Assembly: GCF_030499575.1 (NCBI RefSeq)
Contig: NZ_JASTLC010000001.1
Coordinates: forward strand, 6,038,001 to 6,102,000
From: Streptomyces sp. DG2A-72
GTDB taxonomy: Bacteria; Actinomycetota; Actinomycetes; Streptomycetales; Streptomycetaceae
Reading direction: 5' to 3'
Length of the DNA stretch: 64,000 nt
Of this stretch, positions 37,760 through 42,285 are shown one piece after another. The notes under the pieces were generated by a model that ran no database searches, was not told where the DNA came from, and worked only from the letters and a program-made list of their open reading frames with translations. The translations under genes were made by a program, and so were the position numbers. The stretch's first letter is position 1. Each line of letters opens with the position of its first letter.

Positions 37760-37978
37760 TGACGCCGCAATGGCGTCACGTGGTGCCAGGTGGCGCCATC
37801 TGGTGCCTCGCGGTGCCATTCTGTGCGCCGAGGAGTGCATGAGGGCATGTGGTGCCGCGATTACTCAAGCGGGTGCCAGTGCGTTTCTGCAGGTCAGGGC
37901 GGATTCGGCAGGGCTCCGGGTCCAGGGTGTCATCTCACGGCTTGCATGTAGCGCCATTGTGGTGCCATGATGGCGTCA
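37760..37978. repeat. Ten-bp-periodic array of TGGYGYCA boxes upstream of a ribbon-helix-helix gene
   Basis: Eight-base boxes start at 37760 (TGACGCCG), 37771 (TGGCGTCA), 37781 (TGGTGCCA), 37791 (TGGCGCCA), 37801 (TGGTGCCT) and 37811 (CGGTGCCA); the last five are exactly 10 bp apart. Weaker copies are at 37850 (TGGTGCCG) and 37871 (GGGTGCCA). A second cluster at 37949 (TAGCGCCA), 37960 (TGGTGCCA) and 37971 (TGGCGTCA) has 11-bp steps and ends on the start codon of the regulator. The centre TGGCGCCA is a palindrome. One-turn spacing suggests cooperative binding on one face of the helix, as MetJ- and Arc-type proteins do, and so an operator for the gene at 37978. Confidence 0.8.
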
Positions 37979-38496
37979 TGGACCTCACGCCGTATGTCGA
38001 CACCCTCCGCCGTGAACTCGCGGTGGCCGCCGAAGCCGGCGGTGACGAAGCCCGCGAGCTGGCCGAGCGGCTCACGGCTCCCCTGGAGTCGGCGACCCGT
38101 CTGACGCTGCTCAATGTGCTCTCCGCCGCGATGGACGAGATCACCCGTGAACTCGCTCCCGGCTCGGTCGACGTACGGCTGCGTGGGCTCGACCCCGACT
38201 TCGTGGTGACACTGCCGTCGACCGACGACGGCACCCCCGCGGAGCCTGTCGCGCCCGTCGAACACCTCAGGGCCCCGGCTCCCGCCGACGGTGACGAGGG
38301 TGGCACCGCTCGCGTCAATCTGCGGCTGCCGGCGCACCTCAAGGCGCGTGCCGAGGAGGCCGCGAGCCGTGAGGGGCTGTCGGTCAACGCGTGGCTGGTG
38401 CGGGCCGTGTCGGCCGCGGTCGACGGTGGCGCCCGGCCGCATACGACGGAGAAGGTCAGGACCGTCGGACAGAGCTTCACGGGCTGGGTGCGCTAG
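37978..38496 (+). CDS. Ribbon-helix-helix (HicB/Arc-like) DNA-binding regulator
   Basis: From ATG 37978 the protein has 172 residues. The N-terminal 80 residues are an acidic helical domain of unknown fold. The C-terminal part carries a ribbon-helix-helix motif, TARVNLRLPAHLKARAEEAASREGLSVNAWLVRAVSAAVDGG, typical of HicB-type antitoxins and Arc/MetJ repressors. No toxin gene lies beside it, so it is more likely a plain regulator. The repeated 8-bp boxes that cover its upstream region and touch its ATG are the probable autoregulatory operator. A DUF4097 gene and a DrrAB-type exporter follow on the same strand and are likely its other targets. Confidence 0.82.
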   Translation: MDLTPYVDTLRRELAVAAEAGGDEARELAERLTAPLESATRLTLLNVLSAAMDEITRELAPGSVDVRLRGLDPDFVVTLPSTDDGTPAEPVAPVEHLRAPAPADGDEGGTARVNLRLPAHLKARAEEAASREGLSVNAWLVRAVSAAVDGGARPHTTEKVRTVGQSFTGWVR

Positions 38497-38607: not shown

Positions 38608-39450
38608 ATGCCTTCTTTTGACACACCCGAACCGATTTCGGTCACGGCGCACGTGGGGGCCGGTTCCATCCAGTTCACCGCGGGCGACCGCCTCGACACG
38701 GTCGTCGAAGTGCGGCCCGGCGACCCGAAGAGGGACAAGGACGTGCGGGCCGCCGAGCAGACCGAGGTGACGTACGTCGGCGGCGTCCTGACCGTCAGGA
38801 CCAAGGAGCGCTACCTCATCGGGCCGTCCGGCTCCGTCAACGTGACGGTGGATCTGCCCACAGGATCGCGCGTCGACGTGACTGGCTCCTGGGTCCAGGC
38901 ATTTGGCGAAGGCCGGCTCGGCGAGGTCCATATGAAGACCTCGACCGGCGACGCCCGCTTCGATGAGACCGGACCGGTGCAACTGACCGTGTCCCACGGC
39001 TCGATCACCGTGGACCGCATCGAGGGCGACGCCGAGATCACCACCAACTCCGGCAACATGCGCGTCGGCCTCGTCGATGGCTCCGCCGTCCTGAAGAACT
39101 CGCACGGCACCACGACCGTCGGCACCGTGACCGGCGATCTGCGGGTGAACGGCACCAATGGTGGCATCGATATCGCGCGCGCCGCGGCGTCGGTCACCGG
39201 CACCTCGACCAACGGCCACCTTCGCATCGCCGAAGTCGCTCGCGGCGAGGTCCAGTTGGAGACCTCCAACGGTGCCATCGAGGTCGGCATCCGCAAGGGC
39301 ACCGCCGCCTGGCTCGACGTCAGCTCCAACCGTGGGCAGGTACGCAACACGCTCGCCGCGTCCGAGGCTCCGGAGCAGACCGAGGACACCGTCAAGGTCC
39401 GCGCACGGACCAACTGGGGCAACATCGACATCCGCCGCGCCAAGTCCTGA
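38608..39450 (+). CDS. DUF4097-family beta-helix-like protein
   Basis: The 280-residue protein is built from repeated short strands (SVNVTVDLPTGSRVDVTGS, GSITVDRIEGDAEITTNSGNMRV, GDLRVNGTNGGIDIARA), the pattern of DUF4097/adhesin-like beta-solenoids. It has no signal peptide or membrane helix. Its start ATG 38608 follows AAGAGGACGG. Members often lie beside envelope-stress regulators and ABC exporters in actinobacteria. Here it lies between the ribbon-helix-helix regulator and a DrrAB pair, with 112 and 76 base gaps. Its biochemical role is not known. Confidence 0.85.
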   Translation: MPSFDTPEPISVTAHVGAGSIQFTAGDRLDTVVEVRPGDPKRDKDVRAAEQTEVTYVGGVLTVRTKERYLIGPSGSVNVTVDLPTGSRVDVTGSWVQAFGEGRLGEVHMKTSTGDARFDETGPVQLTVSHGSITVDRIEGDAEITTNSGNMRVGLVDGSAVLKNSHGTTTVGTVTGDLRVNGTNGGIDIARAAASVTGTSTNGHLRIAEVARGEVQLETSNGAIEVGIRKGTAAWLDVSSNRGQVRNTLAASEAPEQTEDTVKVRARTNWGNIDIRRAKS

Positions 39451-39526: not shown

Positions 39527-40531
39527 ATGCCTTCATCTGTCATGCCCACGTCCAGGCGTGGCGGCGACGGTCCGCAGTCGCCCGCCGCCGTCTCCACCGT
39601 CGGTCTGCGCAAGTCGTACGGCGACAAGACCGTTCTCGACGGCATCGACCTGCGCATCCCGGCCGGTTCCGTGTTCGCGCTGCTCGGGCCGAACGGCGCC
39701 GGGAAGACCACCGCTGTGAAGATCCTGTCCACGCTCATCACCGCCGACGGCGGACAGGCCCAGGTCGCGGGCCACGACATCGCCGCCGAACCGCAGGCCG
39801 TGCGCGGCGCGATCGGTGTCACCGGGCAGTTCTCGGCCGTGGACGGGCTGATCACCGGCGAGGAGAACATGCTCCTCATGGCGGACCTGCACCACCTGTC
39901 CAAGTCCGAGGGGCGACGGGTCGCCGCCGAGCTGCTGGAACGCTTCGATCTCGTCGAGGCCGCGAAGAAGCCCGCGCAGAGCTACTCCGGCGGTATGAAG
40001 CGGCGGCTCGACATCGCCATGACGCTGGTCGGCAGTCCACGGATCATCTTTCTCGACGAGCCGACCACCGGTCTCGACCCGCGCTCCCGCCACAACATGT
40101 GGAGCATCATCCGCGAACTCGTCTCCGACGGGGTCACGGTCTTCCTCACCACCCAGTACCTGGAGGAGGCCGACGAACTCGCCGACCGCATCGCGGTGCT
40201 GAACGACGGCAAGATCGCCGCCGAAGGCACGGCCGACGAGCTCAAGCGGCTCATCCCCGGCGGACACGTCCGACTCCGCTTCACCGACCCGGCCGCCTAC
40301 CAGTCCGCCGCCACGGCGCTGCGCGAGGTCACCCGGGACGACGAATCCCTCGCCCTGCACATCCCCAGCGGCGGCAGCCAGCGCGAGCTGCGCTCCATCC
40401 TCGACTGGTTGGACTCCGCCGGCATCGAGGCGGACGAGCTGACCGTGCACACCCCCGACCTCGACGACGTCTTCTTCGCCCTCACCGGCTCGGCCGACGT
40501 CCCCAACCAGCCCAAGGAGAACGTCCGATGA
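39527..40531 (+). CDS. DrrA-type ABC exporter ATP-binding subunit
   Basis: The 334-residue protein has Walker A GPNGAGKTT at 54-62, the signature YSGGMKRRLDIAM, Walker B IIFLDEPTTGLDP, and the C-terminal extension seen in daunorubicin-resistance DrrA proteins (ending near DLDDVFFALTG). It drives export of a hydrophobic compound or lipid with the permease that follows. AAAGGGAGGG precedes ATG 39527. Its stop overlaps the permease ATG by four bases. The substrate is not known, and no biosynthetic genes lie nearby. Confidence 0.92.
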   Translation: MPSSVMPTSRRGGDGPQSPAAVSTVGLRKSYGDKTVLDGIDLRIPAGSVFALLGPNGAGKTTAVKILSTLITADGGQAQVAGHDIAAEPQAVRGAIGVTGQFSAVDGLITGEENMLLMADLHHLSKSEGRRVAAELLERFDLVEAAKKPAQSYSGGMKRRLDIAMTLVGSPRIIFLDEPTTGLDPRSRHNMWSIIRELVSDGVTVFLTTQYLEEADELADRIAVLNDGKIAAEGTADELKRLIPGGHVRLRFTDPAAYQSAATALREVTRDDESLALHIPSGGSQRELRSILDWLDSAGIEADELTVHTPDLDDVFFALTGSADVPNQPKENVR

Positions 40532-41319
40532 GCGCCCTCCCCCTCGCCGTGCGCGACTCGTCCACGATGCTGCGGCGCAATCTCCTGCACGCGCGCCGCT
40601 ACCCGTCCCTCACCCTGAACCTGCTGCTCACGCCGGTCATGCTCCTGCTGCTCTTCGTCTACATCTTCGGTGACGTGATGAGCGCGGGCATGGGGGGCGG
40701 CGGCGCGGACAGGTCCGAGTACATCGCCTACCTTGTGCCTGGCGTCCTGATGATGACCGTCGGCTCCACCGCGGTCGGCACTGCCGTGTCCGTCGCCATG
40801 GACATGAACGAGGGCGTCATCGCCCGCTTCCGCACGATGGCGATCCACCGCGGCTCCGTGCTCATCGGGCACGTTCTCGGCAGCGTGCTACAGGCGGTCA
40901 TGAGCGTGGTCTTCGTCGGCGCCATCGCCGTGGCCATCGGCTTCCGCTCCACGGATGCCACGGCCCTGGAGTGGATCGCGGCATTCGCCCTGCTCACGCT
41001 GTTCACCCTGGCGCTCACCTGGCTCGCGGTCGGGATGGGACTGGTCAGCCCGAACGCCGAGGCGGCCAGCAACAACGCGCTGCCGCTGGTCTTCCTCCCG
41101 CTCATCTCCAGCACCTTCGTCCCGATCGACGCGATGCCGGGCTGGTTCCAGCCGATCGCCGAGTACCAGCCGTTCACCCCGGCCATCGAGACCCTGCGCG
41201 GTCTGCTGCTCGGCAGCGAGATCGGCCACAACGGGTGGCTCGCCATCGCCTGGTGCCTCGCCCTCACCGCACTCGGCTACTTCTGGTCCAAGTCGGTCTT
41301 CAACCGCGACCCGAAGTAG
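40528..41319 (+). CDS. DrrB-type ABC-2 permease subunit
   Basis: The 263-residue protein has six membrane helices and the ABC-2 family features (VPGVLMMTVGSTAVGTAVSVAMDMNEGVIARFRTMAI and LPLVFLPLISSTFVPIDAMPGWFQPIAEYQPFTP). It pairs with the ATP-binding subunit, to which it is translationally coupled. The export direction and a drug-like or lipid cargo are inferred from the family. Its end is 24 bases from the convergent M56 peptidase gene. Confidence 0.92.
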   Translation: MSALPLAVRDSSTMLRRNLLHARRYPSLTLNLLLTPVMLLLLFVYIFGDVMSAGMGGGGADRSEYIAYLVPGVLMMTVGSTAVGTAVSVAMDMNEGVIARFRTMAIHRGSVLIGHVLGSVLQAVMSVVFVGAIAVAIGFRSTDATALEWIAAFALLTLFTLALTWLAVGMGLVSPNAEAASNNALPLVFLPLISSTFVPIDAMPGWFQPIAEYQPFTPAIETLRGLLLGSEIGHNGWLAIAWCLALTALGYFWSKSVFNRDPK

Positions 41320-41343: not shown

Positions 41344-42285
41344 TTACGCCAACGCCGTCAACCCCGGGCCGAAAAGGATCAGCAGGGGCAGCAACGGCAC
41401 CAGCCCGGCCGTCGTCGTAGCGATGATCCTGCGACGGCGGCCCAGCCGTGGGCGGGGCTCAAGGAGCCGGTCCACGCGCTCGCCGAGCAGGCGGTGGCTG
41501 GATGCGCAGGAGAGGACGCCCCGGTGCTGGTTGAGCTCGATCAACGCCAGTGCGGTGGTCAGGTGGCCGCACCGGCGGGATGCCGTGTCATCGGCGGCGA
41601 GTTCGACCAGGCGGTGGGTCTGGTCGCAGAAGTGGGCGAAGAGCGGGATGCGGGGGAAACCGGTGGCGAGGGCGGTGGACAGGTGCAGCAGCCAGTCGTG
41701 GTGGGCGCGGGCGTGGTCGCGTTCGTGGGTGAGGACGGCGTCGAGCTGGTGGTCGGTCAGCCGGTGCAGGGCGCCGGTGGTGACGACCAGTTGGGGCGGG
41801 TTGCCGGGCATCCACCAGGCGTCGGGGTACTCGTCCTCGAGGACCAGAAGTGGACCGCGCGCGGCGGCACCCAGCCCGGCCGGAAGTTCGGGGGCGCGTT
41901 CCCGCAGATGCGCTCGGGTCTGGCCGCGGCGCCTGCGCGCCTCCACCAGCTCGCGGGCGAGCACAGCCGTCGTCCAGGCGGCTCCGCAGGCCAGCAGCAG
42001 GGTGAGGGCGGCGGCCCAGGCCGGGGCCGTGGACAGGTCGTACGCGGCGGTCACCGACGGTGGCGCGGGGGCGAAGACCCGGTCGCGGACGGTGTGGAAG
42101 ACGGCGGCCGTGCCCAGCACGAGCGCCGTCAGGCAGCACAGCAGCACGGTGGCGACCAGGCACTGCCACACCCACAGCCCGACCACGGGTTCCCGCTCCG
42201 GCCACACCGCCCCGGTCAGCGCACGCGGGACCGGCACGGCGGCCGTGAGGGCGACGACGCTCAGCAGGAGCAGGCAGACGGTCAT
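41344..42285 (-). CDS. M56-family (BlaR1-like) membrane zinc metallopeptidase
   Basis: The 313-residue protein has about four membrane helices with a cytosolic zinc site HERDH (LDAVLTHERDHARAHHDW) and a downstream acidic ligand region (LVELAADDTASRR). BlaR1/MecR1 and actinobacterial M56 proteins normally cut a BlaI-type repressor. No sensor domain follows the last helix here, and no BlaI/MecI gene lies on either side: only 171 bases separate it from the fumarylacetoacetase gene. Its substrate must therefore be encoded elsewhere. Confidence 0.88.
   Translation of the reverse strand: MTVCLLLLSVVALTAAVPVPRALTGAVWPEREPVVGLWVWQCLVATVLLCCLTALVLGTAAVFHTVRDRVFAPAPPSVTAAYDLSTAPAWAAALTLLLACGAAWTTAVLARELVEARRRRGQTRAHLRERAPELPAGLGAAARGPLLVLEDEYPDAWWMPGNPPQLVVTTGALHRLTDHQLDAVLTHERDHARAHHDWLLHLSTALATGFPRIPLFAHFCDQTHRLVELAADDTASRRCGHLTTALALIELNQHRGVLSCASSHRLLGERVDRLLEPRPRLGRRRRIIATTTAGLVPLLPLLILFGPGLTALA

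Follow-up and report, generated by a model that had tools for sequence, protein, structure and literature searches.

Tandem two-fold boxes over a predicted leaderless start: a probable autoregulatory operator-promoter of a ribbon-helix-helix protein family in actinomycetes

Upstream of a gene for a ribbon-helix-helix (RHH) protein in Streptomyces sp. DG2A-72, 8-bp boxes recur at helical spacing in a distal and a proximal array, the latter keeping its register to the start codon in relatives from many actinomycete families. We consider it quite probable that the site combines operator and promoter and serves the autoregulation of an RHH repressor family present in those families. The RHH protein would bind the boxes and repress from them, and our confidence in binding is higher than in the reading as a whole. 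The window referred to below is the whole stretch of 64,000 nucleotides that was analysed, located at 6,038,001–6,102,000 of contig 1, and positions relative to the gene are counted from the A of its ATG.

Allowing at most one mismatch to TGGYGYCA, we found box matches at 37760 (minus strand), 37771, 37781, 37791, 37801 and 37811, followed by further ones at 37850, 37871, 37925, 37949, 37960 and 37971; five boxes of this region were exact on the plus strand (37771, 37781, 37791, 37960 and 37971). The first six (TGACGCCG, TGGCGTCA, TGGTGCCA, TGGCGCCA, TGGTGCCT and CGGTGCCA, in order of position) make up a distal array (37760..37818) with steps of 11, 10, 10, 10 and 10 bp. It is followed by two isolated boxes, TGGTGCCG at −128 (37850..37857), identified in the box scan, and GGGTGCCA at −107 (37871..37878), identified in the box scan and array analysis, then by GGGTGTCA at −53 (37925..37932) and by a proximal cluster formed by TAGCGCCA at −29 (37949..37956), TGGTGCCA at −18 (37960..37967) and TGGCGTCA at −7 (37971..37978). 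The array and the single boxes are annotated without strand. The steps of the proximal cluster are 11 and 11 bp, and the final base of its last box is the A of the ATG at 37978. The first-pass annotation had proposed both arrangements, six distal boxes, five of them with exact 10-bp steps, and a second cluster of three at 11-bp steps ending on the RHH start codon, and both were confirmed. Its view that the regularity exceeds chance held as well: 5 boxes follow one another at 10-bp steps, and 5,000 shuffles of the 294-bp upstream region that preserved dinucleotides never produced such a run of more than 2 (reached by 47 shuffles). Single boxes were not enriched across the whole window (196 matches with at most one mismatch versus 233 expected), and the proposed genome search for other arrays yielded a loose two-box pattern at four places of the own genome, two in the array and two outside it, the same number as with a reversed control pattern. 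Thus, the strict spacing alone carries information. As to the consensus, boxes stood at the positions annotated for TGGYGYCA; since the box is two-fold symmetric and exact distal boxes occur on both strands in relatives (TGGTGCCA 86 times, TGGCACCA 65 times), TGRYRYCA is the better description.

The relatives comprised loci L001-L181, called here the Streptomyces set, L182-L237 from other families, and L238-L315 from families f18, f38, f46 and f20. The first 237 loci yielded 235 with an RHH match, 231 with a usable start codon and 218 with distinct upstream sequences; the 78 later ones yielded 76 with a start and 69 that were new and distinct. Six members of the Streptomyces set (L093 and L097-L101) come from other families and were moved to these in the group split and the partner counts, while they remained with the Streptomyces set in the 218-locus register, distal-box, second-motif and neighbour analyses.

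Among the 218 distinct upstreams, which represent many actinomycete families, boxes with at most one mismatch to TGRYRYCA occupied all three positions −29, −18 and −7 in 156, two of them in 47, one in 4 and none in 11. All three were exact in 97 loci, and shifted registers (−60 to +39) never exceeded 3 loci. The distribution of three, two, one and no boxes was 120, 31, 1 and 8 in the 160 loci of the Streptomyces set proper and 36, 16, 3 and 3 in the 58 from other families. The box at −7 was present in 199 of the 218, most of the 15 loci with none or one box in register still had two boxes, displaced by one base or by a few, and at least two boxes lay within 45 bp of the start in 215 of the 218 and in 67 of the 69 further distinct loci. 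Within the 1.33 Mb of the 218 loci, every exact 11-bp triple (97/97) was found at an RHH start and every exact 10-bp triple (30/30) within 400 bp upstream of an RHH gene; per 46 nt, there were 3.05 boxes at RHH starts, 0.10 upstream of DUF4097 and 0.14 elsewhere. The boxes are conserved between families and most spacer bases are not. Loss of the boxes in relatives that keep the RHH gene, which the first-pass annotation had named as evidence against its proposal, was not what we found in these loci; their conservation favours an operator.

The distal array showed a different distribution. In the 166 loci from L001-L181, box pairs at distance 10 numbered 367 with one mismatch allowed, versus 0.9 expected from shuffles, and there were 2.64 exact boxes per locus upstream of −36 (0.10 in shuffles); a box with at most one mismatch was found at −128 in 32 of these loci and at −127 in 26. 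The 52 loci from L182-L237 had 0.92 exact distal boxes per locus and preferred a distance of 11 (16 pairs) over 10 (5 pairs). A strict 10-bp triple occurred as 15 clusters in 14 of 150 Streptomyces genomes, versus none for the reversed pattern, and 13 of the 15 clusters sat 53–382 bp upstream of an RHH gene. The other two (in genomes G084 and G103) are located within or next to simple repeats, and the 6 kb examined there gave no match to RHH, DUF4097 or DrrA. Most gene-holding genomes were without the strict exact triple, which 13 of the 91 possessed. Outside the Streptomyces set, distal boxes had no clear tie to the presence of the exporter gene drrA (1.24 versus 0.99 exact boxes per locus). 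A second conserved motif, TTTCTGCAGGTCAG (37884..37897, plus strand), was detected by scanning relatives for GCAG[CGT]TCA, which occurred 62 times in forward orientation in the 166 upstreams, 53 of them at −90 to −88. The motif around GCAGGTCAG lies between the two arrays (at −89/−88 in relatives) and is sometimes reversed in relatives.

A scan with a strict sigma-70 consensus returned no promoter at the RHH locus, and no terminators were found either; the promoter was read from conservation instead and is, hence, a prediction. The predicted −35 element, TTGCAT (37942..37947, plus strand; −36 to −31), is separated by an 18-bp spacer from the predicted −10 element, CATGAT (37966..37971, plus strand; −12 to −7), which bridges proximal boxes 2 and 3. 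In the 218 upstreams, T was found at −36 in 144, T at −35 in 205 and G at −34 in 143, together with A at −11 in 204 and T at −7 in 208, so that the recurring promoter-like pattern has TTG (−36 to −34) in the −35 element and CANNAT (−12 to −7) beyond the 18-bp spacer. This geometry places the predicted +1 on the A of the regulator ATG (37978), and the mRNA would be leaderless; a Shine-Dalgarno-like tetramer was present in only 2 of the 218 upstreams. In Streptomyces coelicolor, the −10 element of promoters reads TANNNT, and leaderless mRNAs arise from 21% of the primary starts (PMC4895711). From the spacer through the −10 element to the +1, the predicted promoter is taken up by proximal boxes 1 to 3, so that tandem boxes of fixed pitch cover what appears to be the regulator's own promoter. 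The −35 element occupies the slot that a box at −40 would take; farther upstream, a box was found at −51 (57) or −50 (15) among the 166 loci from L001-L181, close to the −53 box of the window. Rfam gave nothing above its gathering score at the locus.

The regulator is a protein of 172 amino acids encoded at 37978..38496 (plus strand), the predicted leaderless mRNA beginning at 37978. A longer open reading frame from 37849 was discarded as the RHH gene, because the ATG at 37978 is the one that aligns with the starts of the homologues examined. AlphaFold2 predicted the N-terminal domain (residues 1–80; 37978..38217, plus strand), with block means of 88–98, as helices 4–20 and 23–59 followed by a beta hairpin (63–78) with strands 63–69 and 72–78. 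Pfam scans of this domain were without match, Foldseek returned nothing at E 0.001 or below and VIA gave low-Z matches only; because the domain was not predicted alone, these empty fold searches do not establish a new fold. The RHH domain (residues 107–150; 38296..38427, plus strand) is a beta-alpha-alpha segment with alternate strand residues facing DNA, as in the Arc/CopG/MetJ superfamily, and its putative base-reading strand is R112-V-N114-L-R116, with R112 and R116 invariant among 74 aligned proteins. Among PDB sequences, the profile matched pArc (E 3e-4) and Arc (E 1e-3); with a threshold of E 1 there were 16 PDB matches, none of them MetJ. The alignment also delimited a tail (38431..38493, plus strand; pLDDT below 50) ending in TGWVR, in which G169 and W170 are nearly invariant. 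This C-terminal TGWVR, placed after a low-confidence linker, resembles a docking motif.

RHH matches at E 1e-3 or better were found in 91 of 150 genomes of the same genus, a few of them short and weak, and, at E 1e-10, in 138 of 394 genomes and 53 of 137 genera of the class, which we take to be Actinomycetes. In family f46, all 80 genomes and all 46 genera had the RHH gene at E 1e-15. Named holders include Streptomyces, Kitasatospora and Actinacidiphila and also Jiangella, Phytoactinopolyspora and Ruania; the nearest named proteins among the matches listed are from Streptomyces. The family amounts to at least 7,963 scored matches, and the database names among the matches listed are HicB family antitoxins, histidine kinases and hypothetical proteins; the labels 'HicB family antitoxin' and 'Histidine kinase' look wrong for this family. 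One locus (L073, 1501-2088) encodes a 196-aa protein with the RHH N-terminal part in frame with a C-terminal end that is DrrA-like by eye; the RHH strand is missing and the boxes are still upstream.

The putative base-reading strand aligns with the strand Q9-F10-N11-L12-R13 of P22 Arc, so that residue 114 falls in the Asn11 column. Among 174 protein columns, this one was the best predictor of box type, which depends on whether G3/C6 or A3/T6 forms the outer pair: its adjusted eta2 was 0.82 (next column, 0.53) in a balanced set of 154, and in the first set it had also ranked first, with 0.74 (next, 0.59). The balanced set combined the non-Streptomyces loci with 20 loci of the Streptomyces set hand-picked for variety and 12 random ones, identical N-terminal rows being counted once. 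Asn went with TGG half-sites in 72 of 75 loci and Thr or Ser with TGA half-sites in 77 of 79, with 16 ties assigned to TGA (13 Thr/Ser concordant, 3 Asn discordant); with the ties removed, the counts were 72/72 and 64/66. The exceptions were L071, with Thr, and L215, with Ser, which carry TGGCGCCA in box 1. The same association was seen between paralogues. From family f46 we sampled 20 genomes with a best-scoring copy 1 and then retrieved the second copy, and in all 20 the two copies differed in residue and box accordingly, copy 1 having Asn and half-sites TGG:TGA of 85:7 and copy 2 having Thr and a ratio of 25:88. On trees, residue 114 changed 5 or 6 times; with so few independent switches, independent-pair tests cannot reach significance, and indeed neither the first test (2 same, 0 opposite, 2 undecided) nor one with more rows (one usable pair) was significant. 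Within f46, at least eight columns followed the paralogue split closely and residue 114 was outside the eight best listed; within f18 it came fifth, nearly tied. The argument rests on the best of the 174 columns being a position known to touch DNA in Arc, where Gln9, Asn11 and Arg13 contact bases (PMC12645479). The RHH strand probably reads the boxes, with residue 114 tracking their type.

Downstream, on the plus strand, follow a DUF4097 (Toastrack) protein of 280 amino acids (38608..39450; Pfam PF13349, 42.1 bits, cut-off 22.9), a DrrA-type ABC ATPase (39527..40531; TIGR01188, 326 bits, cut-off 312) and a DrrB-type ABC-2 permease (40528..41319; PF01061, 90.8 bits) that overlaps the drrA stop codon (ATGA) and scores 70.8 with the narrower DrrB model TIGR01247, under its cut-off of 223. 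The last two, a DrrA subfamily ATPase and an ABC-2 permease, constitute a DrrAB-type exporter, and co-transcription probably runs through DUF4097 and DrrAB. Convergent with drrB, an open reading frame on the minus strand (41344-42285) has a HExxH-like stretch and perhaps encodes an M56-type membrane peptidase, judged by eye. Among distinct loci with at least 1.9 kb of downstream sequence, DUF4097 followed the RHH gene in 261 of 270 (144 of 148 in the Streptomyces set, 117 of 122 in the others), leaving nine without a match. DrrA was present in at least 123 of the 148 and at least 43 of the 122, both lower bounds since many loci cover only ~2 kb downstream. By residue, it was found in 150 of 190 Asn loci and 16 of 79 Thr/Ser loci, and in f46 in 22 of 30 copy 1 loci (about 2 kb covered) and none of 20 copy 2 loci (2.4–3.5 kb covered). 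The exporter is thus mostly, not only, associated with the Asn type, and we dropped the idea that DrrAB is exclusive to that branch. The first-pass annotation had DUF4097 and an exporter following the regulator under a multi-box operator driving all of them. The conserved register and the link between box and residue support a multi-box operator of the RHH gene; of the genes behind it, DUF4097 is near-constant, whereas DrrA is frequent rather than constant. Its recQ-to-DUF4097 region failed as a conserved unit; recQ was present in 1 of 60 full-length named loci and was rejected as part of the unit, which, given that this upstream neighbour is rarely kept, moves.

Some loci depart from this order. 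L067 has the RHH gene followed by DrrA and DrrB without DUF4097, and in L066 a transposase-like open reading frame, recognised by eye, stands ~0.7 kb behind the RHH start, in the expected place of DUF4097. Four distant RHH homologues (L223, L230, L231 and L237) keep the boxes and had no detected DUF4097; their partner may be too divergent or different.

The system resembles several known ones in part. As in Arc, of which two dimers occupy adjacent major grooves (PMC12645479), there would be about one dimer per turn. The Arc operator has 21 bp. Arc recognises TAGA boxes rather than palindromes (PMC12645479, PMC9731233); the window differs in its palindromic boxes, at least three of them, its extra N-terminal domain and its chromosomal operon. 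With MetJ it shares palindromic 8-bp boxes in tandem and the core GACGTC of the TGACGTCA type. This is the core of the met box, AGACGTCT, and MetJ boxes abut at a pitch of 8 bp. In the window, the pitch is 11 bp in the proximal array and 10 bp in the distal one, with spacers of 2–3 bp and an outer TG..CA. A neighbourhood of Toastrack/DUF4097, ABC and RHH genes in Actinobacteria has already been noted (PMC11237479); the parts of that survey available to us describe no operator, promoter or specificity residue, nor any RHH-DUF4097 pair without ABC genes.

We propose that RHH dimers would bind singly to the two-fold 8-bp boxes (TGRYRYCA), of which each helical turn offers one. The boxes at −29, −18 and −7 would cover the −35/−10 spacer, the −10 element and +1, with the box at about −51 often flanking the −35 element, and cooperative occupation along the helix would exclude RNA polymerase from the leaderless promoter. 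The regulator would thereby set its own level and that of the downstream genes, DUF4097 nearly always and DrrAB often. In Streptomyces, the distal 10-bp array might increase occupancy locally or allow the nucleoprotein complex to grow, and the pairing of Asn114 with TGG and of Thr/Ser with TGA might keep two paralogous circuits apart in one cell. The best candidates for the route of a release signal are the DUF4097 partner, the conserved N-terminal domain and the tail; as a guess, a signal linked to DUF4097 or the membrane might act through the N-terminal domain or TGWVR. A more ambitious combination, which we regard as tentative and rather doubtful, would join a one-residue code insulating paralogues to a DUF4097 receiver and a ParR-like filament. 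The Toastrack protein would bind the N-terminal domain or the TGWVR tail and take the RHH chain off the promoter, the 10-bp distal and 11-bp proximal arrays of Streptomyces would nucleate a single ParR-like filament, and its growth would set exporter output.

If the RHH protein acted on the boxes as an activator or architectural organiser, the distal array might loop or wrap the DNA and aid the polymerase, with the proximal boxes feeding back at high protein level. The unequal distal and proximal pitches of Streptomyces (10 and 11 bp) would suit such a role; moreover, AmrZ, also an RHH protein, both activates and represses (PMC3325190), and the ParR arrays of R1 bracket their own promoter (PMC5016525). 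We nevertheless find it unlikely, because only the proximal triple is near-constant across families, its position on the predicted −10 and +1 should exclude polymerase when occupied, and L182-L237 are poor in distal boxes (0.92 versus 2.64 per locus). That another regulator reads the boxes, the RHH gene being merely one target, seems very improbable. The conserved motif GCAGGTCAG does suggest additional factors at the locus; however, the boxes accompany the RHH gene from family to family whereas its upstream neighbour differs, and their type goes with the contact residue of the RHH strand even when two paralogues share a cell. A strict 10-bp array was found in 1 of 59 sampled Streptomyces genomes without an RHH match (E 1e-3), and there it adjoins a minisatellite-like tract.

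RHH antitoxins autoregulate, the public names among the matches listed include 'toxin-antitoxin system HicB family antitoxin', and the RHH segment barely reaches the Pfam HicB cut-off (21.2 bits, cut-off 21), all of which could recall a HicAB-like toxin-antitoxin module. Yet a search of the complete own genome with HicA_toxin (PF07927) was negative at E 1e-3, as the first-pass annotation anticipated in giving the regulator no toxin partner, while 7 of 14 control genomes were positive; 261 of 270 loci have DUF4097 next to the RHH gene, and PADLOC had no match for the RHH or the DUF4097 protein. The N-terminal domain of HicB is a partial RNase H-like one; the predicted order of two helices and a hairpin argues against such a domain here, although this is a model and fold searches are unable to rule a family out. 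We give this module hardly any weight. Even less credit goes to a centromere-like, parC-type site moving or tethering DNA. RHH dimers on ten-bp repeats form a superhelix in ParR/parC (pSK41, R1), and in R1 the par promoter lies between two repeat regions and is repressed (PMC5016525); the distal pitch is likewise 10 bp. But the window site is chromosomal, its proximal boxes lie inside the predicted promoter, and DUF4097, DrrA and DrrB follow in the operon instead of a ParM motor gene. Equally implausible is a drifting tandem repeat of no regulatory role. The two array matches away from RHH genes, in or beside simple repeats, would fit it, but conservation already contradicts it, the boxes being kept between families while most spacer bases are not; they also stand on both strands, in a fixed register to the start codon.

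An autoregulatory operator-promoter of an RHH repressor thus accounts best for the site. RHH autorepressors with tandem boxes are an already known kind; in the open-licence literature searched, none of the titles and abstracts listed dealt with this operator or regulator. As far as these searches show, what is new is an operator fixed on a predicted leaderless start across families, along with its two pitches and a residue-box code between paralogues. For at least 7,963 proteins of the family, this would mean a specific and testable function, namely local repression of a DUF4097 circuit. With an operator that keeps single-base register with promoter and ATG in many families, experiments could address directly whether an RHH array represses a leaderless promoter, and the Asn/Thr switch, with the 20 two-paralogue genomes as natural pairs, would provide a system for studying how RHH specificity evolves without crosstalk. 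The circuit would also offer an entry point to the molecular role of Toastrack proteins.
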